From contig NZ_LUTR01000003.1 in assembly GCF_001597725.1 (NCBI RefSeq), positions 62,001-126,000 of the forward strand: 64,000 nucleotides of DNA. The letters are read 5' to 3'. This document shows positions 2 through 52,728 of this stretch, in pieces. Source of the stretch: Neptuniibacter marinus (GTDB lineage Bacteria > Pseudomonadota > Gammaproteobacteria > Pseudomonadales > Balneatricaceae). The notes under the pieces were generated by a model. The model was given only the letters and a program-made list of their open reading frames with translations, was not told the DNA's origin and searched no databases. Position numbers and translations under genes: made by a program. Position 1 is the stretch's first letter. Each line of letters begins with the position of its first letter.

Positions 2-1405
2 TATGGCTGCCCGGAAAGCACCTTAGAGCTTTATGATGTGGCGATTGATGAAGCTAGAGAAAGTGGCTTTTTGCGTGATGAGGCGACAGCATGCGAACGT
101 GCTGCCCGTTTTCTTATCGGCCTTGGCCGTAGACGATCAGCGGAAGGTTATTTGAGAGCGGCCCATCGTATTTATGATCGCTGGGGGGCACACCGTAAGG
201 TGGAATTACTTGAGCAGGAGTTCCCTATATTAACTGAGTGCTCCGCTAGTGCTTATCTGTCAACGGCCAAGCAGGAGATGACAGATCTTGATTTAGCTTC
301 AGTTATGAAAGCGTCTCGTGACATATCTGGCGAAATTTTATTAGACCGATTACTCAAAACCAGTATGAGCATTTTACTAGAAAATGCAGGTGCTCAATGG
401 GGTTGCCTCGTGGTTAAGCACGAGGGGGAATTAGTGGTGGAAGCGGTAAAACTGCCAGATCATTTGTCGGCAGAGGGATTAGCAAATCATTCACTTATTT
501 CAACGGTTGCTGGTGAGAAAATACCTTTACCTGTCACTTTACTAAGCCAAGTATTTCACAATGGTTCTGCGATCGTACTTCATAATGCACTAGACGATGG
601 CTGTTTTATCCATGATCCCTATATACAGGCATTTAAGCCTTTATCTGTGTTGTGTGTACCTATTCAAAGAGAGCGATTTGAGGCTGTGCTTTATATGGAA
701 AATAATCTTGCAAGCGGCGTTTTTAGACATGATCGTGTTGAGGTTATTCGTCTTTTAGCTGCTCAAGCATCTGTGGCCATTGAGAATGCACGCCTTTATG
801 AGCAAGTGCAGGAGCACTCTAAAACCTTGGAAGATAAAGTCGCTGAACGAACGGCTCGTTTAGAACAAGTCAATCAAGAGCTACAAGGGCTAGCTGATCG
901 GGATGGTTTGACGGGGGTAGCCAATAGACGCAGAGGTGATGCTTATCTAGCTGAAGTTTGGGAGCGTTTGCGCAGAGAAGCACACCCACTCACGATTATT
1001 ATGCTTGATGTTGATCATTTTAAGGCCTTCAATGATAACTATGGACATCAAGGTGGAGATGATTGTTTGATTGCCGTTGCCAAAGCGGTGCAATCTCAAC
1101 TTCTTAGACCTACTGATTTAGTGGCTCGTTATGGGGGAGAGGAGTTTATGCTCATTCTTCCGGATACCGATTATAAAGGCGCTGCACTTATTGGTGAGAA
1201 GGTTCGTTGTGCTGTGCAGGATATGACGATTGAGCATGCTCATTCATCAGCAAGTCATGTAGTGACGGTTAGTGTAGGTACCGCCACTATGATTCCGGTA
1301 ATAGAGCAGGGGGCTGATAGCTTGCTTCGTGAAGCGGATATTGCTTTATATCGTGCGAAGAGGATGGGGCGAAATCAATTACAACAAGCCTCTAATATTA
1401 GTTAA
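2..1405 (+). CDS. C-terminal part of a GAF-GGDEF multidomain signalling protein (5' truncated)
   Basis: The frame is open to the first bases of the window, so the gene starts upstream. A GTG at 38 is probably just an internal valine. The first ~80 residues (YGCPESTLELYDVAIDEA, later YLRAAHRIYDRWGA) look like the helical tail that precedes GAF domains in very large kinase/AAA-ATPase hybrid sensors. Roughly residues 90-255 form a GAF domain and 255-290 a coiled coil. A GGDEF domain with an intact GGEEF signature (ARYGGEEFMLILPD) follows, so diguanylate cyclase activity making c-di-GMP is expected. No EAL domain follows. The missing N-terminus may carry a Ser/Thr-kinase-like and an ATPase domain; that is known of the family and not seen here. 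Confidence 0.85.
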   Translation, partial: YGCPESTLELYDVAIDEARESGFLRDEATACERAARFLIGLGRRRSAEGYLRAAHRIYDRWGAHRKVELLEQEFPILTECSASAYLSTAKQEMTDLDLASVMKASRDISGEILLDRLLKTSMSILLENAGAQWGCLVVKHEGELVVEAVKLPDHLSAEGLANHSLISTVAGEKIPLPVTLLSQVFHNGSAIVLHNALDDGCFIHDPYIQAFKPLSVLCVPIQRERFEAVLYMENNLASGVFRHDRVEVIRLLAAQASVAIENARLYEQVQEHSKTLEDKVAERTARLEQVNQELQGLADRDGLTGVANRRRGDAYLAEVWERLRREAHPLTIIMLDVDHFKAFNDNYGHQGGDDCLIAVAKAVQSQLLRPTDLVARYGGEEFMLILPDTDYKGAALIGEKVRCAVQDMTIEHAHSSASHVVTVSVGTATMIPVIEQGADSLLREADIALYRAKRMGRNQLQQASNIS

Positions 1406-1796
1406 TTAATAGCACTAAATAACGTTCTATTAGCAACGACCGAGGACAGCACCACTTACATTTATAAGCTTCATCCTATTAAGCTCTATCGTTTTTTCTC
1501 TTAATCTCCAGTCAAAGTTCATTCACTCTGTATAGTTCGAGTCGTCTGCTGCTTGCCACTCAGTAGAGGTGAGTTTGCAAGGATAATTCGCCTTTTTTTG
1601 GGGCGCGGATGCTATTTTTGTTTTATTTTGGGGCGGGCTAAGTGTTCTTTGAGTCGATTTTATATTTTTAACTTTTTGTTTTTAAAGAATTTAGTTTGTT
1701 TGGCCCTTATTTTGCTTTTGTATAAAGCAATATGCACAAGAGCATACTTAGGTGGATGTGTACGCGAGTTAACACCGCTTATGACAATTTGATCAA
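1406..1796. other. Intergenic region upstream of the guanidine operon
   Basis: About 390 bases with no convincing gene. A 79-codon frame at 1553-1792 is rich in F, L and C, lacks a good ribosome site and overlaps the promoter region, so I do not call it. The region holds a sigma-54-like promoter (separate entry). Near 1554-1572 there is a weak CCACTC/GAGGTG inverted pair about 140 bases upstream of it, a possible but unproven activator site. Confidence 0.5.
1700..1716 (+). promoter_or_regulatory. Candidate sigma-54 promoter of the guanidine operon
   Basis: TTGGCCCTTATTTTGCT has GG (1702-1703) and GC (1714-1715) at exactly the -24/-12 spacing, with TTGGC and TTTGCT elements. It departs from the TGGCACG-N4-TTGC consensus at two -24 positions. 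It lies about 80 bases before the riboswitch, so transcription from it would include the aptamer. Nitrogen control through RpoN/NtrC would suit a nitrogen-scavenging operon; that is inference. Confidence 0.5.
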
Positions 1797-1893
1797 ATGG
1801 GTATCTAGGGTTCCGGCTACAAAGATGTAGTGACTGGACCGAGAGTTACCAACCTCACCTGAGGTCACACGGAGGGATAAAAGCCCGGGAGAA
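1797..1893 (+). promoter_or_regulatory. Guanidine-I riboswitch (ykkC class)
   Basis: The conserved ykkC blocks occur in order: TCTAGGGTTCCG at about 1803, ACTGGACCGAGAG at about 1833, a P3 hairpin with arms ACCTC (1852-1856) and GAGGT (1861-1865), then ACACGGAGGG followed by GCCCGGGAGA near 1883. This is the guanidinium-sensing aptamer. It sits about 60 bases before the first ABC gene of a guanidine pathway, which supports both identifications. I see no clear intrinsic terminator after it. The RBS (AAGGTGAAG, about 1942) can pair with TCACCT in P3, so translational control is possible. Edges are approximate. Confidence 0.93.
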
Positions 1894-1952
1894 CAAAACC
1901 TATAGGTGATGTCTCTTGTGCTTAATTTTCGTGAAACTACAAAGGTGAAGTT

Positions 1953-3035
1953 ATGATGAATACCATTCGATCTTTCATGCGAACGCTGTTGATGTGCGCT
2001 TCAGTGTTCTCCCTTCTACTCAGTTTTTCCTCAAACCTTCAAGCTGAAGAAAAAAGCGAATTTAAAGTCGCTTGGACGATCTATGTCGGTTGGATGCCAT
2101 GGGATTATGGCGCAGCGACAGGGATCGTGGATAAGTGGGCTGATAAATACGGCATTAAAATCGACGTTGTTCAGGTCAATGACTATGTGGAGTCTATTAA
2201 CCAATTCACGGCAGGCCAGTTTGATGCCACTGTAATGACTAACATGGATGCATTAACTATCCCTGCAGCGAGTGGTGTTGATTCAACTGCACTCATCGTT
2301 GGTGATTTCTCAAACGGTAACGATGGTGTCGTACTTAAAGATGCTAAAACATTGGCAGACATTAAAGGCCAGCAAGTTAACCTAGTTGAATTAAGTGTTT
2401 CCCATTATCTACTAGCACGCGGCCTTGAAACTGTTGGCATGACAGAGCAAGACGTTAAAGTGGTTAATACCTCTGATGCCGATCTTGTGGCTGCTTTTAG
2501 TGCCGATGATGTGACAGCGGTTACCACTTGGAACCCTTTGTTAAGCGAAATTACTGCTATGCCAAATGCAAGCAAAGTGTTTGACTCTTCTATGATCCCA
2601 GGTGAAATTATTGACCTAATGGTTGTTAATACTGAAACCCTTGAAGCGAACCCAAAACTGGGTAAAGCCTTAGTCGGTGCTTGGTATGAGATTATGACCA
2701 CCATGGCAGCTAATGATGAAGGCTCAATTAAAGCAAAAAGCTTTATGGCTGAAGCTTCTGGTACTGATTTAGCTGGTTATGAAGCTCAGCTTGCTTCTAC
2801 AAAAATGTTCTATACCGCAGCCTCCGCCCTAGAATTCACAAACAGCGATAGCCTGACTAAAACGATGCAAAAAGTGAGTGAATTCTCATTTGAGCATGGT
2901 CTTTTAGGTGAAGGTGCACCGGATGCGAAGTTTATCGGTATTGAAACGCCTGCAGGTGTTTACGGTAATGCGGCTAATATTAAACTACGTTTTAACCCAA
3001 CGTACATGAAAATGGCTGCCGACGGCTCTCTGTAA
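1953..3035 (+). CDS. Guanidine/urea-type ABC transporter periplasmic binding protein
   Basis: A 360-residue NitT/TauT-like solute-binding protein with an N-terminal signal peptide (a hydrophobic stretch after MNTIRSFMR, probable cleavage after LQA). Its body (AWTIYVGWMPWDYG, later TWNPLLSEI) fits the binding-protein family historically annotated as urea carboxylase-related. The RBS AAAGGTGAAG lies just before tandem ATGs at 1953 and 1956. It is the first gene after the guanidine-I riboswitch and is followed by the cognate permease and ATPase. By context the ligand is guanidine (guanidinium). The urea label in databases predates the recognition that these operons degrade guanidine. Confidence 0.88.
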   Translation: MMNTIRSFMRTLLMCASVFSLLLSFSSNLQAEEKSEFKVAWTIYVGWMPWDYGAATGIVDKWADKYGIKIDVVQVNDYVESINQFTAGQFDATVMTNMDALTIPAASGVDSTALIVGDFSNGNDGVVLKDAKTLADIKGQQVNLVELSVSHYLLARGLETVGMTEQDVKVVNTSDADLVAAFSADDVTAVTTWNPLLSEITAMPNASKVFDSSMIPGEIIDLMVVNTETLEANPKLGKALVGAWYEIMTTMAANDEGSIKAKSFMAEASGTDLAGYEAQLASTKMFYTAASALEFTNSDSLTKTMQKVSEFSFEHGLLGEGAPDAKFIGIETPAGVYGNAANIKLRFNPTYMKMAADGSL

Positions 3036-3083
3036 TCTCTTAATACACTTATTGCTTAGTCCAACAGAGAACTGGAGCCTAGA

Positions 3084-3914
3084 ATGACACGTCTTATAAA
3101 CCGTCAACCTAGCCGCTACTCGCGGTTGATGCTTGGGTTACTGCCTTTCATTGTTTTGTTTGTTATATACCTTGTGACATCCGATGCTCGATTGGCTGAA
3201 AACCCAAGTGATAAATTACTGCCCTCACTGGGTAGTTTTGCCGATGCCATTGTTCGTATGGGCTTTGAGCCTAGCAAGCGAACCGGCGAGTATCTGTTGT
3301 GGCAAGATACCTTTACCAGTTTGCAACGGTTAGGCATCGCTGTTGGATTGAGCGCAACGATCGGGCTAGTGATTGGTGTCTTTAATGGCATGATCCCTTA
3401 TGTTCGATCACCTTTATCACCCTTAGTGACTGCATTATCGCTTATCCCACCGATGGCTATTTTGCCGATCCTATTCATCACCTTTGGTTTAGGTGAACTC
3501 TCTAAAGTTGTGCTGATTGTGATTGGCATAACGCCAGTGATTATCAGGGATATTCAGTTACGTACCGATGCGCTGCCGTCAGAACAGTTGATTAAAGCGC
3601 AAACCTTAGGTGGTAATAGCTGGCAGATCATTCTTAGGGTGGTTTTACCACAGACGATGCCGCGCTTAATTGATGCAGTACGTCTGACCTTAGGGAGTGC
3701 GTGGCTCTTTCTTATTGCTGCTGAAGCGATTGCAGCGACAGAAGGGTTGGGTTACCGCATCTTCTTGGTACGACGCTACTTAGCCATGGATGTTATTTTG
3801 CCCTACGTTTTTTGGATTACAACGCTCGCGTTTGCGATGGATTGGTCTTTAAAACGCATCTCTATATTAGCTTTCCCTTGGTACCACTCAGCGCAAGGAG
3901 CTCGCAATGACTAA
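3084..3914 (+). CDS. ABC transporter permease (guanidine uptake)
   Basis: A 276-residue inner-membrane permease of the NitT/TauT type. An N-terminal helix (LGLLPFIVLFVIYLV) and several further hydrophobic segments are visible. The cytoplasmic EAA-type loop reads IKAQTLGGNSWQIILRVVLPQ, which contacts the ATPase. It lies 48 bases after the binding protein and overlaps the ATPase gene by 8 bases, so the three are translationally linked. It probably forms the homodimeric channel of the guanidine importer. Substrate comes from context only. Confidence 0.88.
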   Translation: MTRLINRQPSRYSRLMLGLLPFIVLFVIYLVTSDARLAENPSDKLLPSLGSFADAIVRMGFEPSKRTGEYLLWQDTFTSLQRLGIAVGLSATIGLVIGVFNGMIPYVRSPLSPLVTALSLIPPMAILPILFITFGLGELSKVVLIVIGITPVIIRDIQLRTDALPSEQLIKAQTLGGNSWQIILRVVLPQTMPRLIDAVRLTLGSAWLFLIAAEAIAATEGLGYRIFLVRRYLAMDVILPYVFWITTLAFAMDWSLKRISILAFPWYHSAQGARND

Positions 3915-47915: not shown

Positions 47916-48003
47916 GGTCAGGTGTCCGAGTGGCCGAAGGAGCACGCCTGGAAAGCGTGTATACCGCAAGGTATCGAGGGTTCGAATCCCTCCCTGACCG
48001 CCA
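47916..48003 (+). tRNA. tRNA-Ser (anticodon GGA)
   Basis: Acceptor arms GGTCAGG (47916-47922) and CCTGACC (47993-47999) pair perfectly, followed by G and encoded CCA. The anticodon stem-loop CACGC-CTGGAAA-GCGTG holds GGA. A long variable arm (TATACCGCAAGGTATC) and T-loop GGTTCGAATCC confirm a class II serine tRNA reading UCC/UCU. Its 3' end is the start of the tandem repeats that follow. Confidence 0.97.
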
Positions 48004-48493
48004 TCTATTTAAAACGAAAAAGCCTTGCTTAGCGCAGGGCTTTTTTGTGTCTGCGATTTAGAGGGATGAGAACCCGAGAAGAGGGTTTGAGCCGAGCGAA
48101 GCGAGACAACGTGGGAGCCTGCGACCACGGCCCTGAAGGGGTGAAATAATCCCTCCCTGACCGCCATCTATTAAAACGAAAAAGCCTTGCTTAGCGCAGG
48201 GCTTTTTTGTGTCTTCGATTTAGAGGGATGAGAACACGAGAAGAGGGTTTGAGCCGAGCGAAGCGAGACAACGTGGGAGCCTGCGAGCACGGCCCCGAAG
48301 GGGTGAAATAATCCCTCCCTGACCGCCATCTATTTAAAACGAAAAAGCCTTGCTTAGCGCAGGGCTTTTTTGTGTTTGCGATTTAGAGGGATGAGAACCC
48401 GAGAAGAGGGTTTGAGCCGAGCGAAGCGAGACAACGTGGGAGCTTGCGACCACGGCCCCGAAGGGGTGAAATAATCCTTCCCTGACTGCCATT
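47987..48493. repeat. Three tandem ~163-bp copies of the tRNA-Ser 3' end plus terminator
   Basis: Units begin at 47987, 48150 and 48312 (163 and 162 bases) with TCCCTCCCTGACCGCCAT, the last 17 bases of the tRNA. A truncated fourth copy begins at 48475. Each unit contains a terminator (AGCCTTGC/GCAGGGCT plus T-run), then GAGCCGAGCGAAGCGAGAC and a CCCGAAGGGG hairpin. Copies differ by only a few bases. A related degenerate copy lies at 52624-52701, so the set looks like attachment-site scars. From 48494 to 48677 I see nothing else. Confidence 0.92.
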
Positions 48494-48677
48494 AATGATT
48501 TATTTGTTAAAAATAATGCGTTATGAATGGTTTCTTTATCTAAAGTTGACGTTAATCTTGACATCTTTTCTTTTTACAAACTTCCTTAGATTATCCTCTC
48601 CTTGTATAAATTATGTGCAGTGGTAATGTCGTACGGTGATCCCTAATGTTTATAGCTGAGGTGAGGGAATGCAAAGA

Positions 48678-49076
48678 TTACTTGAATACTTGGCGAATAT
48701 CATAAAATTCAAAGGACTTACTCTCTCTTCGAATATCATCGAAAGCTTCGTCTAAACTTGTAAACCTTAATAGTGGGAATGTTTCGTTGTTACTGATGTT
48801 TGGATTACACCACGTGTTTGTGCTCGTAAGAGTAACATGCCTTCTACATACAAATGGCCTTACATCATAAATAGAGCAGCTTCCATTCTTTAGAAAAGGG
48901 CATGGAGTTCCATGAAAGTCAGCTTTGGATGAAAAGGTCTTTTGCCTCTTTACTCGTGTAAATTTCTCAATAAATGCAATTTCTACTTCACTAACTGTAA
49001 CTGCATAATGACAGCAGTCAGAGCAGCCCTTCTTACAAGGTGTGTAGCGTGACGCATATTCATAAAGCTCATTCAT
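48678..49076 (-). CDS. YkgJ family cysteine-cluster protein
   Basis: 132 residues with the YkgJ pattern: CKKGCSDCCHYAV near the N-terminus, then CPFLKNGSCSIYDVRPFVCRRH. Eight or so cysteines could bind zinc or an iron-sulfur cluster; the family's role is uncertain. Its start overlaps the stop of the small upstream gene by 8 bases. It is the last gene of the minus-strand operon in the tRNA-Ser island. Confidence 0.85.
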   Translation of the reverse strand: MNELYEYASRYTPCKKGCSDCCHYAVTVSEVEIAFIEKFTRVKRQKTFSSKADFHGTPCPFLKNGSCSIYDVRPFVCRRHVTLTSTNTWCNPNISNNETFPLLRFTSLDEAFDDIRRESKSFEFYDIRQVFK

Positions 49077-49236
49077 GAAGGCGTAAAGAGTCGACAGTTT
49101 TTTTTTCGTGGCTTTTTTTAGCTTTTTTTAGTTGTGTTGAAAACTTATCTTCTTTTTCTGATAGGTGGGTTGGCGCATTTGCTACTAATTGTTCAAAGTT
49201 CCTTTGGGCCGCTTTCTTCTCTTTGTCTAATTCCAT
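49069..49236 (-). CDS. Small charged protein, 55 aa
   Basis: MELDKEKKAAQRNFEQLVAN begins a 55-residue, lysine/glutamate-rich helical peptide ending VDSLRLHE. AAGGA lies 6 bases before the ATG. The stop codon TGA at 49069-49071 overlaps the YkgJ start, so the two are probably co-translated. It is 55 bases after the flavoprotein stop. I recognise no family; a regulatory or adaptor peptide is possible. Confidence 0.65.
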   Translation of the reverse strand: MELDKEKKAAQRNFEQLVANAPTHLSEKEDKFSTQLKKAKKSHEKKTVDSLRLHE

Positions 49237-49290
49237 GAGTTAATCCTTGTTTGTACGTCCCAGTTATTTTTTAAAATAGAATGGCTTAAC

Positions 49291-50334
49291 TTAATGATTT
49301 AGCTTTGGGTTTACTTTACAACTTAAATAACTCTTCCCTTGAGTAAAATAATGGCAATAACCGGATCTATTGCAATGATTAATGTTGTTAAGATCACCTG
49401 TTAAACTCTTCTTAACAAAATCGGGGTCTGCGATTAGGGGACGGCAGACACCGAATGTTAATCTTTCTTCCGCATCTATCAGAGGGGATAAATTCCAGAA
49501 ATTACCAGAAACATTAATAGCTACATCTGTACAGTCTAGCAACTCTTTTGCGAAGTTGATGTATACTCCATATCCATCATTTTTTGATGGATATATTAAC
49601 TTCCTTGATAGGTCATACATACCGGCAGATAAGCTTATTATATCTAAACCAGCTTGCTCTAATGTCATGATCTGGGACTTCCGCATAGCCCACTCATGAT
49701 TATCATTACTTATTCCTTCAATGCATGAAAACCTCATATCTATAAGGTATTCGCTGGATAAACTTCGTAAGTCTTGTATTAGTTGAAATAAGCCACCATG
49801 GTTATCAATGGAGTATTGATCTTTCCTAGTATTTATTTTTTCGTTGAGGAGAAGAGATAGAAAGTAACCATGGGCAGCATGTATCTGTATAACATCAAAG
49901 CCATAGACTAATGCAGTTTGAGCTGACTCTATAAAGCTTTTAAAAATCTTATCAATCTGTTTTTTTTCAAGGGAGGATATGAATTCGCGAAGTTTGTGGA
50001 TGGTTAAGGTTTTATTTTCTACTCTCCAGCTTCTTTGTGCATCGTTCTTGTAGTACCTGCAGGCTAGCTGTATTCCAGAAAGGCAACCATCATACTTAAT
50101 ATTGTTAACTAGACTTTTCCATTCTGGCGTATTGGGCTGAAGTGTTAGCGTGCCTCCATTACTTTTATACTGCTCCCCAACTGCAATGTTGCCAACATAA
50201 TTTATACCCATGTATGAGCTCGATCTTTCTTGATGAAAATCAATTAGCTTTTCTGTGGGTAGGTTGTTTTCAGTAAAGCCCGTGTTTACAGGTGCAAAAA
50301 AAAAACGGCTGTTGAGTTTTTTGCCCCGGATCAT
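49291..50334 (-). CDS. Old Yellow Enzyme-like NADH:flavin oxidoreductase
   Basis: About 347 residues from ATG 50334, which lies 7 bases after the MazG-like stop. The open frame reaches 50412 but would overlap that gene by 70 bases. TIM-barrel FMN features are RFFFAPVNTGFT, DVIQIHAAHGYFLSLLLN and VCRPLIADPDFVKK. The C-terminal Cys region HCNRSGYCHYF...LSCKVNP resembles the iron-sulfur site of 2,4-dienoyl-CoA reductase-type members but has one fewer Cys. The second half of such reductases is absent. Substrate unknown; it lies in a nucleotide-enzyme operon. Confidence 0.82.
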   Translation of the reverse strand: MIRGKKLNSRFFFAPVNTGFTENNLPTEKLIDFHQERSSSYMGINYVGNIAVGEQYKSNGGTLTLQPNTPEWKSLVNNIKYDGCLSGIQLACRYYKNDAQRSWRVENKTLTIHKLREFISSLEKKQIDKIFKSFIESAQTALVYGFDVIQIHAAHGYFLSLLLNEKINTRKDQYSIDNHGGLFQLIQDLRSLSSEYLIDMRFSCIEGISNDNHEWAMRKSQIMTLEQAGLDIISLSAGMYDLSRKLIYPSKNDGYGVYINFAKELLDCTDVAINVSGNFWNLSPLIDAEERLTFGVCRPLIADPDFVKKSLTGDLNNINHCNRSGYCHYFTQGKSYLSCKVNPKLNH

Positions 50335-50341
50335 CAGTTGA

Positions 50342-50701
50342 TTATTTTTCAAAACTCTTAAACTTCCTGTCATTGAAGTTGTACTTCTTTTGGTATTCCT
50401 TGCCGATATCAACTTTAAAAAGGTTGAACAGCCTTAACATATATATAAATGAGTCTATTAGTTCTTCATTCATTTCAGCTTTATGGCTTAAAATGAAAGA
50501 GTCTAGTGATTCTTGATCATTTTTAATTAAAGCTGCTTTTTTAACTAAATTTGAGAATTCACCAATTTCTCCAATCAGCCCTACAATATCAGATGATGCT
50601 ATATTAATGAGTTCGGCATTGTTCTTAGCATCGCTTGACCATCCATGTTTAGAATCAAATTCCTTCTGTGTTTTTAAAAGCTCATCTATATTCATTATCA
50701 T
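50342..50701 (-). CDS. MazG-like nucleotide pyrophosphohydrolase
   Basis: 119 residues with the all-alpha NTP-PPase pattern: a first helix carrying EIGEFSNLVKKA (metal-binding ExxE) and a second, EELIDSFIYMLRL (ExxD). Family members cleave (d)NTPs to monophosphate plus pyrophosphate. The ATG overlaps the stop of the upstream deaminase-fold gene (ATGA). A second ATG at 50695 is possible. It might lower nucleotide pools or clean a modified nucleotide. Confidence 0.8.
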   Translation of the reverse strand: MIMNIDELLKTQKEFDSKHGWSSDAKNNAELINIASSDIVGLIGEIGEFSNLVKKAALIKNDQESLDSFILSHKAEMNEELIDSFIYMLRLFNLFKVDIGKEYQKKYNFNDRKFKSFEK

Positions 50702-51507
50702 TTTTTCCTATAGCTGGTAACTAAATGGGTTAGACCCATGAAAATTATGTTGGATACGATGCCTATAGATATTGATATTGTTGTATCAATTTTATCTCCA
50801 TCTGCAATGGTTATAATCAGTGCAAACATAAGAATGAAATAAATACATGTTAGAAAAGTTACGCTTTTAAGTGTGTAGCTTAAATTTTTGTATAGCTTTC
50901 CGATATTTTTACCGTGTGTATTCTTAACTTCAGAATACTCATTTCCTATACGCCTATCTTGCTTGATTTCTTCTTCTGTAAGGAACATATCTTCAGGAAT
51001 TGGCCACATGTTTGTTTGGTAGCCATGCTGACCGTGATATGGGTATTCCACTTCTTTATCAAGTTGGTAAAACTCTACTTTAGCAATTGCTTCATTGGGC
51101 TTTATTTTGATATATCGATTAGAGGAATTATGGAAAACAATACCTAGATTTCCGTAAAATCCGGGGTCTGCATAAGTATTGACGGGCAGAAGCCCGATTG
51201 AGAATAGTTTTCCTTTGCTTAATATTCTAGCTAATAAATCACTTTTAATATTAAGTGACTCTTTTGATATTATGACAACACTTTGCCTTGGTTTTATCAG
51301 GATGTAATCGTTATCGGAAAGTGTATGTTTTATGGAGTTGGCTGGGTCTGATAAATCATAGTAAATATTGCTTGCTCTGAGTTCATAGCAGCATTGTTTT
51401 ATGTTTTCAGGGGAGTAGTTATCTTTGATCAATACTCCGTTTTTACAAAGTTCTCTTATTCTAGAGTCGGAGAGTGTACCAATGTGATTTGTTTCCTTAA
51501 CATCCAT
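50698..51507 (-). CDS. dCTP deaminase/dUTPase-fold protein with two C-terminal membrane helices
   Basis: 269 residues. Residues ~10-170 show the trimeric dCTP deaminase/dUTPase fold: CCYELRAS, SKGKLFSIGLLPVNTYADPG, and FYGNLGIVFHNSSNRYIKIK. Aligned on ADPGF/IDPGW, the catalytic Glu138 of E. coli Dcd corresponds to Val124 here, and the Ser111/Arg115 region is not clearly conserved. Deaminase activity is therefore doubtful; nucleotide binding or dUTPase-like chemistry remains possible. Residues ~213-235 and ~244-264 are membrane helices, absent from housekeeping Dcd. It is 10 bases after the dTMP kinase gene. Confidence 0.8.
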   Translation of the reverse strand: MDVKETNHIGTLSDSRIRELCKNGVLIKDNYSPENIKQCCYELRASNIYYDLSDPANSIKHTLSDNDYILIKPRQSVVIISKESLNIKSDLLARILSKGKLFSIGLLPVNTYADPGFYGNLGIVFHNSSNRYIKIKPNEAIAKVEFYQLDKEVEYPYHGQHGYQTNMWPIPEDMFLTEEEIKQDRRIGNEYSEVKNTHGKNIGKLYKNLSYTLKSVTFLTCIYFILMFALIITIADGDKIDTTISISIGIVSNIIFMGLTHLVTSYRKK

Positions 51508-51517
51508 GTTTATTTTG

Positions 51518-52282
51518 TTACTCCGTGTGGTATTTTAAAGCCTGAAATTTAGTTTGCTTAGGTAAAGGCTTCAAAAGTACTGATTTCAGATTTGACCATT
51601 GGCACGTATTGGTCATCCTGAAGCTACAGTGATACTCATCATCACATCCATAATCTTTAGCGCAGAGCTTGTCTTTCAATACGCCATCTACGAGTATATT
51701 GACTATGGTGGTATGAAGCTGATCGATTGTGTTGTTAGAGTCAAGTTCATAAAGTGAAGAATCTTCTCGGCATAGCCAATGGTAAACTTTACGTACTTCA
51801 GTTAAGTAATCGATATTTTCGAAAGAATTAGGGGCGCCGTCACGAACCTCAATCCTTTCTTGAGAGATATGAGGGTTCACATCCATTATGAAAGAAATAT
51901 CAGGCTTTAATGCTGACTCCATCACGTCTTGACGTAGTTTTACTTTGTCTTCGCCTCTTGCTCCTTGATAACAAATGGTTGAATAGTAATACCTATCTAA
52001 GATTACTATTTTCCCACGATCTAGAGCTGGTTGAACTAAGGTCTCTATGTGTTCTTTTCTATCCATGATGAAGGCGTGTAATTCTTCATCAAGAGGCATT
52101 CTTTCAGTGGTGGCAGATTGACGAATTTTCTGGCCCCATTGGCCATCTGTTGGTTCTTTAGAAGTAACAACAGTTACTCCCGCATTTCGAAGTGCTTGAG
52201 AAAGTAAGTCAACCTGTGTGGTCTTGCCAGCTCCATCGATACCGTCAAAAACGATTAATATACCTGTGTTTTCTTGCGGCAT
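51518..52282 (-). CDS. Thymidylate kinase-like protein with Cys-rich C-terminal tail
   Basis: About 254 residues from ATG 52282, with GGAG upstream; a TTG at 52297 is less likely. The P-loop is FDGIDGAGKTTQ, the DR(Y/F)-type motif ILDRYYYSTICYQG, and a lid-like KVKLRQDVMESAL follows. The core phosphorylates dTMP to dTDP. After residue ~195 comes an extension with CAKDYGCDDEYHCSF and a further Cys (TNTCQW), perhaps a zinc site, not found in ordinary Tmk. It heads the operon; a housekeeping tmk is expected elsewhere. Confidence 0.85.
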   Translation of the reverse strand: MPQENTGILIVFDGIDGAGKTTQVDLLSQALRNAGVTVVTSKEPTDGQWGQKIRQSATTERMPLDEELHAFIMDRKEHIETLVQPALDRGKIVILDRYYYSTICYQGARGEDKVKLRQDVMESALKPDISFIMDVNPHISQERIEVRDGAPNSFENIDYLTEVRKVYHWLCREDSSLYELDSNNTIDQLHTTIVNILVDGVLKDKLCAKDYGCDDEYHCSFRMTNTCQWSNLKSVLLKPLPKQTKFQALKYHTE

Positions 52283-52297
52283 TCGATCAGGCTCCAA

Positions 52298-52728
52298 TTC
52301 TTAGAGTTATAATTCTATGTAAAACAAAGTGTTAGACATAATAGTCTTTATTAAAATAGATTTTATCATACAGGAATGCACAAGTAATGTATCAGGGAAT
52401 AATAGAAGCACTATTTTAAATCATAAAGTGATTATGTCCCTTACTTTGACTGCGAGTTAGGTTGTCAGTTGAACAAGTTATCACCCATATGTAAATCCTC
52501 AGATTTGTAGGATTAGGATTGAGTTTGACGATTATTAATTTGGTTGCAGTTTCATATGACAGTTGTACAGTGACCTAGGCTCTCTTTAGAAGGTAACTTA
52601 TTGTTTGTACGTGGTCGCCAGTTGAGGGTTTCAGCCCCCCCCCTGACCGCCATCTATTAAAACGAAAAAGCCTTGCTTAATCGCAGGGCTTTTTTGTGTC
52701 TAGCTCGTGGCGTTCGCTTTGGCTTCTC
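52298..52728. other. Gap upstream of the nucleotide operon with tRNA-derived scar
   Basis: About 430 bases. The left two thirds (52298-52620) are AT-rich, show no gene and presumably hold the operon promoter; I cannot place -35/-10 boxes with confidence. The right part is the tRNA-Ser 3'-end remnant described separately. Confidence 0.6.
52624..52701. repeat. Degenerate copy of the tRNA-Ser 3' end and terminator (right boundary)
   Basis: GAGGGTTTCAGCCCCCCCCC and then TGACCGCCA follow the T-arm and acceptor of tRNA-Ser(GGA), with changes. After it ATCTATTAAAACGAAAAAGC leads to the same terminator as in the left repeats, with two extra bases in the loop. The copy lies 4.1 kb from the tandem set and in the same orientation, as expected for an attachment site at the far end of an integrated element. 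Confidence 0.85.

Follow-up and report, generated by a model that had tools for sequence, protein, structure and literature searches.

Several bacterial defense systems, among them the viperin-type, dCTP-deaminase, dGTPase and Kongming systems, confer immunity by way of altered nucleotides or deoxynucleotides, in some cases with kinase partners. In the Z-genome pathway (MazZ, PurZ, DatZ) a MazG-type enzyme gives a monophosphate, the base is altered, and kinases restore the triphosphate. In this study, a stretch of 64,000 nucleotides from Neptuniibacter marinus (assembly GCF_001597725.1, contig NZ_LUTR01000003.1, positions 62,001 to 126,000; hereafter the window) was analyzed for a gene cassette lying on its minus strand in a tRNA-Ser island. 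The core of the cassette encodes a membrane protein with the fold of dCTP deaminases and dUTPases (DCD-like), a MazG-like pyrophosphohydrolase, and a flavoprotein of the Old Yellow Enzyme (OYE) family; a dTMP kinase gene (tmk) adjoins it. Our tentative reading, to which we give a probability of about 0.4, is that this three-gene core is a horizontally transferred nucleotide-remodeling system, most likely directed against phages. Defense by altering nucleotides is a known kind of immunity, and the cassette may well be an undescribed bacterial defense system built around an unusual flavin enzyme.

In contrast to viperin-type systems, no radical SAM domain was found by Pfam in the six open reading frames (ORFs) of the island. 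The DCD-like, MazG-like and OYE-like proteins of the window had no match among the PADLOC v2 models at E 0.1, which separates them from the viperin-type, dCTP-deaminase, dGTPase and Kongming systems alike. With the Z-genome pathway, and with viperin and its kinase, the cassette would share its logic; the enzymes differ from those of the Z-genome pathway, MazZ being only a weak profile match to the cassette MazG (E 0.028), and the cassette would have a putative reductive step. In the DefensePredictor article (PMC13092281), MazG and dUTPase domains are among the predicted, unvalidated defense domains and an earlier bioinformatic prediction is cited; Burroughs (2015; PMC4678834) is among the works listed there. 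Kinase domains that sense modified nucleotides are mentioned in PMC10853773 and PMC12839542. The combination of genes in the cassette was not found in full-text searches of an open-access library, a body largely without subscription papers, bioRxiv preprints and supplements, so an earlier prediction is possible.

A conserved three-gene core

An earlier note on the window had described six minus-strand ORFs (48678-52282), with gaps of 10, -4, 7, 54 and -8 bases, as one system. The coordinates and the spacing were confirmed from the ORF positions; the conserved unit is smaller. It consists of three genes in the order DCD-like membrane protein, MazG, OYE-like flavoprotein, and the dTMP kinase is optional. 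The core genes of the window are:

50698..51507, minus strand: DCD/dUTPase-fold protein with two C-terminal membrane helices, core gene 1 (Pfam DCD, 1.4e-15)
50342..50701, minus strand: MazG-like (dCTP-pyrophosphatase-1-like) pyrophosphohydrolase, core gene 2 (family profile and residues)
49291..50334, minus strand: divergent OYE flavoprotein with an invariant three-Cys C-terminal motif, core gene 3 (Pfam Oxidored_FMN, 1.4e-20)

A plasmid search with the DCD-like protein returned six records: two plasmids of Priestia megaterium (54% identity over 97%), one of Rhizobium beringeri and two of Sinorhizobium meliloti (40-43% identity over 81% and 68%), and one of Priestia filamentosa with a weak match. 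On the five good plasmids the DCD gene is followed by genes for a MazG-like and then an OYE-like protein, the latter labeled hypothetical. MazG was recognized by profile in four of the five (not in L024), and the OYE gene of L028 is shortened by an insertion sequence. When plasmids were searched with the OYE protein (limit 1e-15), five of nine records were these same five; the remaining four hold proteins annotated as oxidoreductases, with identities of about 26%.

From 84,980 species genomes, a pattern scan recovered at least 24 loci with the core whole or in part, a lower bound because the scan needs exact short patterns. These loci span Pseudomonadota, Bacillota, Bacteroidota, Actinomycetota, Planctomycetota, Verrucomicrobiota, Desulfuromonadaceae and Nitrospinaceae. 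By profile, OYE lies beside DCD in 20 of them and MazG in 13. The order DCD-MazG-OYE is kept in 12 loci; MazG comes last in L037, OYE precedes DCD in L038, and the DCD gene of L049 is truncated. The earlier note had named homologs that never cluster outside this strain as the outcome that would defeat its proposal; the cluster recurs across phyla. All three core genes were also found on three contigs of a viral collection, in two cases next to a gene that we read as repressor-like. A scan of the viral-contig collection with the single DCD protein gave no match, and three phage records had weak DCD matches only.

The distribution of the cassette is rare and scattered. The DCD protein matched 269 of 369 class genomes, and besides the window all listed matches were weak (best 44 bits) and were taken for ordinary Dcd proteins. 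A strict profile search (E 1e-40) of 398 genomes of the phylum, with no more than six candidates scored per genome in most cases, picked up the window and, of the 397 other genomes, one (G703). The MazG gene was present in none of the ten other genomes of the genus, and among the 57 genomes searched only in the window's own genome and in one family member.

In G703, DCD and MazG form one ORF of 367 amino acids (aa); no membrane segment is visible in it, and the OYE gene follows. About 1.2 kb from this fusion ORF (L098, 8780-9883) lies what looks, by eye, like a gene for a 5-methylcytosine DNA methyltransferase. Between DCD, MazG and OYE, pairwise identities are correlated at 0.87-0.91 (permutation p 0.0001); a common history of adjacent genes would account for this as well as interaction would. 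Members are also replaced: a NUDIX protein stands at the place of MazG in L035, and a Flavin_Reduct protein at that of OYE in the two most divergent loci (L050, L052). That enzymes are lost or swapped for others of like chemistry points to a pathway.

Properties of the core proteins

The AlphaFold model of the DCD-like protein has a mean predicted local distance difference test (pLDDT) score of 87, and its nearest solved structures are dUTPases and dCTP deaminases (Foldseek 8.1e-12 to 9ln0); the Dcd/dUTPase fold was assigned from this monomer model. Among the best 50 of 762 matches in BFVD, nearly all that were named were viral dCTP deaminases, dUTPases and Pol proteins. The deaminase catalytic Glu is E138 of Escherichia coli Dcd, and entries with E138-variant titles are among the structure matches in the PDB. 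In all 29 aligned DCD-like rows the corresponding position, which falls at the VTLEF stretch of the host's ordinary Dcd in the alignment, is Val, Ile or Thr. The protein is therefore not a dCTP deaminase, and that candidate function was rejected. The analogy with dCTP-deaminase effectors, drawn in the earlier note, falls with the missing Glu and with the lack of PADLOC matches reported above.

Hallmarks of dUTPases are a motif-3 catalytic Asp with an aromatic residue after it and an Arg-Ser phosphate-binding motif. D114 and F117 of the dUTPase-like motif are invariant (29/29), and at the phosphate-binding site K98 (27/29) and G99 (29/29) stand instead of Arg-Ser. Compared with the superfamily (Dcd, Dcd-Dut, 9ln0, 8y1w), the cassette protein thus shares the fold, the invariant DPG motif and a GQxG-type lid, whereas it has V/I/T for Glu, K-G-x for R-S-S and, mostly, two added membrane helices. 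The helices of the window protein are backed by the AlphaFold model and by hydropathy, and two hydrophobic C-terminal segments occur in most of the 29 rows. The helices noticed earlier are common; they are not indispensable, since G703 has its fused MazG domain there. The structure alignments omit three plasmid-derived rows (26/29 and 23/26 kept), and alignment A4 omits the near-copies L028, L024 and L043 as well as the truncated L049.

The MazG ORF, which overlaps the DCD-like ORF by 4 bases, had no confident Pfam match (only dUTPase_2 at 0.0032) and has diverged too far for the MazG model of Pfam to recognize it. A family profile of 20 sequences gave dCTP pyrophosphatase 1 (RS21-C6) as its best match, at 4.7e-12. 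The ExxE and ExxD metal-site residues shared with the all-alpha pyrophosphohydrolases of the DCTPP1/MazG type (E45, E48, E80, D83) are kept in 20 of 20 sequences, so the catalytic site appears intact, and hydrolysis of deoxynucleoside triphosphates (dNTPs) is predicted. Unlike those enzymes, the cassette MazG has DCD and OYE as its regular cluster partners, and in one case it is fused to DCD.

Translation of the OYE-like protein probably starts at an ATG at about 50334, 7 bases from MazG; the open frame extends upstream to 50412. Its model (pLDDT 90) is closest to XenA, 2,4-dienoyl-CoA reductase (1ps9) and YqjM, with which it shares the fold, the sequence family and the Gln, His pair and Arg of the flavin mononucleotide (FMN) site. 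Gln115, His181, Tyr183, Arg227 and Arg324 are kept in 26 of 26 sequences. As a TIM barrel with the His pair the protein is, by its residues and its model, an Old Yellow Enzyme, and FMN binding is predicted. It differs from these enzymes in having no FAD/NADPH domain and in sitting in a nucleotide operon. The 2,4-dienoyl-CoA reductase branch carries a C-terminal Cys cluster, a four-Cys 4Fe-4S motif of usual spacing. The cassette protein departs from that motif: three Cys are invariant (26/26), the middle fourth is present in 9/26, and the spacing is C-x2-C-x2-C-H-Y-x9/10-C. The cluster is likely a metal or iron-sulfur site.

Defense genes near the core

Plasmid copies adjoin Gabija (GajA 1.4e-279, GajB 6.9e-248; L026) and a CBASS cyclase with its phospholipase effector (L028). 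Enrichment beside defense genes, a check suggested in the earlier note, was tested on 14 loci. On either side of each locus, the closest ORF that reached 150 aa was scored for a PADLOC match at 1e-10 (28 ORFs); as paired controls served the two most central ORFs in a 15-kb stretch of those contigs (28 ORFs). Matches were found for 8 of 28 neighbors and 1 of 28 controls (Fisher p = 0.025), a modest enrichment; counted by locus, for 7 of 14 and 1 of 14 (p = 0.033). The matching neighbors belong to L032, L033, L039, L045 (both sides), L046, L047 and L050, and the sole control match is, by our reading, an ABC-type ATPase. Cassette genes were not counted as neighbors (L034 dNK, L037 P-loop, L044 tmk and the next ORF, L047 nucleotidase, L050 Flavin_Reduct). 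Outside the 28 ORFs, L051:6006-9014 matches a type IIG restriction enzyme (4e-25), and L046:13100, L046:14908 and L048:7019 had no PADLOC match.

The integration site

The cassette of the window lies in an insert of about 4.15 kb with a G+C content of 35.9%, against 41.7-41.8% in the flanks. The site comprises:

47916..48003, plus strand: tRNA-Ser (GGA), integration site of the island (ARAGORN)
47985..48492, plus strand: three tandem copies of a unit of about 162 bp, each opening with the tRNA-Ser 3' end
about 48476-48492, plus strand: degenerate tRNA 3' end closing the last unit, left boundary of the insert
52637..52701, plus strand: fourth copy of the tRNA 3'-end repeat (65 bp), right boundary of the insert

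Repeats of the tRNA-Ser 3' end lie at 48150, 48313 and 52637. In G371, a genome of the same genus whose flanks are 94-97% identical, the tRNA side is joined directly to the next gene via the same repeat; this empty site identifies the insert in the window. Together with the repeats it bears out the island location at tRNA-Ser proposed earlier. Direct repeats of the tRNA 3' end and an empty site are thus present, as in integrative islands; no integrase was seen inside the island, where 48493-52637 holds, besides the six genes, nothing but short ORFs that overlap one another and reach 105 aa at most. Each of the 162-bp units has a terminator-like hairpin, judged by eye. A relative of the same genus has one unit and the final copy where the window has three, so the number of units varies.

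Kinase and passenger genes

The remaining ORFs of the island are:

51518..52282, minus strand: dTMP-kinase-like protein (tmk) with a Cys-rich C-terminal tail, optional cassette kinase (Pfam Thymidylate_kin, 7.7e-44)
49069..49236, minus strand: charged ORF of 55 aa, passenger, 54 bases after the OYE-like ORF
48678..49076, minus strand: YkgJ-type CxxCxxCC metal-binding protein, passenger or local accessory (Pfam CxxCxxCC, 1.6e-10), overlapping the preceding ORF by 8 bases

The kinase gene ends 10 bases before the DCD-like ORF. The host genome has another tmk elsewhere, scoring higher than the island copy, and an ordinary dcd (L004). The island genes are therefore not housekeeping copies, and a housekeeping nucleotide set was rejected. 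The tmk gene adjoins the core in the window, L029, L031, L042, L043 and L044; Marinobacterium litorale (L029) has the same kinase-DCD-MazG-OYE set. In Massilia (L047), tmk lies on the other strand 2.65 kb beyond OYE, with a 5'-nucleotidase gene directly after OYE and a transposase-like ORF between the nucleotidase and tmk. L034 has a dNK-type kinase and no OYE was found there; with it, 7 of the 24 genome loci carry a kinase. The P-loop protein of L037 is not classed as a nucleotide kinase by Pfam.

The Cys-rich tail (51518-51700 in the window), of the pattern type C-x-K-x-YGCD-x4-C-x4-[TS]-x-x-C-x-W, recurs in the Marinobacterium and Massilia kinases; among six aligned kinases only these three share it. 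It is possibly a metal site. Matches of the island kinase to PADLOC v2 models (PDC-M51B 2.5e-16, VakA 2.1e-6) were taken for cross-matches within the kinase family.

In single-sequence phmmer searches (E 0.01) of the ORFs of at least 50 aa in L024-L058, the 55-aa and YkgJ-type ORFs had no homolog; no scan with the Pfam CxxCxxCC model was made. Of the three non-core genes only the kinase matched outside the window. A six-gene system was rejected on these grounds.

Proposed function and alternatives

Two proteins of pyrimidine-dNTP metabolism together with a reductase suggest that a dNTP is cut to the monophosphate and then altered. MazG would cleave a pyrimidine deoxynucleoside triphosphate (dCTP or a relative). 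The OYE-type flavoprotein would act on the resulting nucleotide, most simply by reducing the base, and its return to the normal pool would be blocked. The dTMP kinase or another nucleoside kinase, where present, would rephosphorylate the altered nucleotide to an analog, and the DCD/dUTPase-fold protein, usually membrane-anchored, may bind or hydrolyze the triphosphate and so sense or steer the pool. Recurrence, synteny, fusion and transfer of the cassette, the intact residues of MazG and OYE and the lack of the deaminase Glu come directly from the computational comparison; for the anti-phage role only association speaks; substrate, order of steps, base reduction and sensor role are what we infer. 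If true, this would be new chemistry, in which synteny and parallel divergence link an ene-reductase-type flavoprotein with MazG and a deaminase-dead DCD protein. The core, of about 2.2 kb, is present in many phyla, and a role would be suggested for 'hypothetical' proteins on rhizobial and Priestia plasmids. In a narrower version, MazG would supply a pyrimidine dNMP, OYE would reduce its base (e.g. to a 5,6-dihydro form), and the dTMP kinase of the cassette or host would make a dNTP analog; this analog would either poison the DNA synthesis of the phage or be recognized by the membrane-bound DCD-like protein. Such a cassette would stand beside viperin as its flavin-based counterpart; we consider this version decidedly unlikely.

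Several points weigh against a remodeling system. The full route is not universal, since MazG was not found by profile in 11 of the 24 loci (one with the truncated DCD, one with NUDIX) and no kinase was found in 17 of 24. We know of no OYE enzyme that acts on nucleotides, and His178 is kept in 25 of 26 sequences, L036 having Gln instead. The neighbor test covered 14 of 24 loci, picked for long contigs, and its enrichment is modest. For three of the eight positives (L032, L047, L050) the scan preceded the design of the test, and the downstream L045 match is probably a relaxase. A first, G+C-filtered gene caller was discarded because known L047 neighbors were lost; the unfiltered rule that replaced it, applied to both sets, probably yields some spurious ORFs (e.g. 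L041:6721-9312). In half of the tested loci (L030, L034, L037, L038, L041, L044, L051) the nearest genes had no PADLOC match, and the L041 copy is surrounded by housekeeping genes.

Plain depletion with a membrane effector is a possible explanation that we doubt. The DCD-like protein would be a dUTPase-type hydrolase or a nucleotide-gated effector, in keeping with its nearest structures, its invariant dUTPase-like Asp and the hydrophobic segments of most rows; MazG would remove dCTP, and the flavoprotein would be only a redox sensor. That last role is odd for the most constant partner (20/24) with its active-site His pair kept in 25/26; the DCD-MazG fusion moreover has no visible hydrophobic C-terminal segment, and the R-S-S phosphate-binding residues are replaced by K-G-x. 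MazG and NUDIX proteins are classic sanitizing enzymes, and OYE enzymes handle oxidized compounds. The cassette might accordingly clear damaged or non-canonical nucleotides as a mobile stress or house-cleaning set with no part in phage defense, and two Priestia plasmid copies do adjoin a gene annotated 'damage repair protein'; the rare, scattered distribution and the defense-gene neighbors make this unlikely. That the genes form a small pathway for the biosynthesis of a nucleoside natural product or a signaling nucleotide, unrelated to phages, is very improbable: a route through kinase, pyrophosphatase and reductase would be chemically sensible, and a 5'-nucleotidase adjoins one copy, but no recurrent transporter or transferase was read by eye beside the core among the neighbors listed, and the core sits beside defense genes and on mobile elements. 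A chance gathering of unrelated island genes would suit the local-looking 55-aa and YkgJ-type ORFs; for the three-gene core it is already refuted by the order kept across phyla, the gene overlap and the fusion, and has practically no chance of being right.

Related gene sets

A recurrent set of four genes, read by eye as encoding a CARF-like protein, a P-loop ATPase, a metallophosphoesterase and a DNA methyltransferase, adjoins three cassette copies (L027 9151-13917, L045 4288-9747, L046 12180-17114). The CARF-like protein of L046 and the methyltransferase of L045 match PADLOC models; the ATPase and the phosphoesterase of L046 do not. The divergent DCD-membrane proteins paired with Flavin_Reduct in L050 (9959-11375) and L052 (4185-5665) may represent a second subtype. 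The best of the weak DCD matches in the class, L005, sits in a different gene set (839-3254), made up of a 196-aa protein, a DCD-like protein that may have a membrane segment, and a third protein that we take to resemble the helical domains of 5-hydroxymethyldeoxyuridine (5-hmdU) DNA kinase; this is perhaps a sister nucleotide system.

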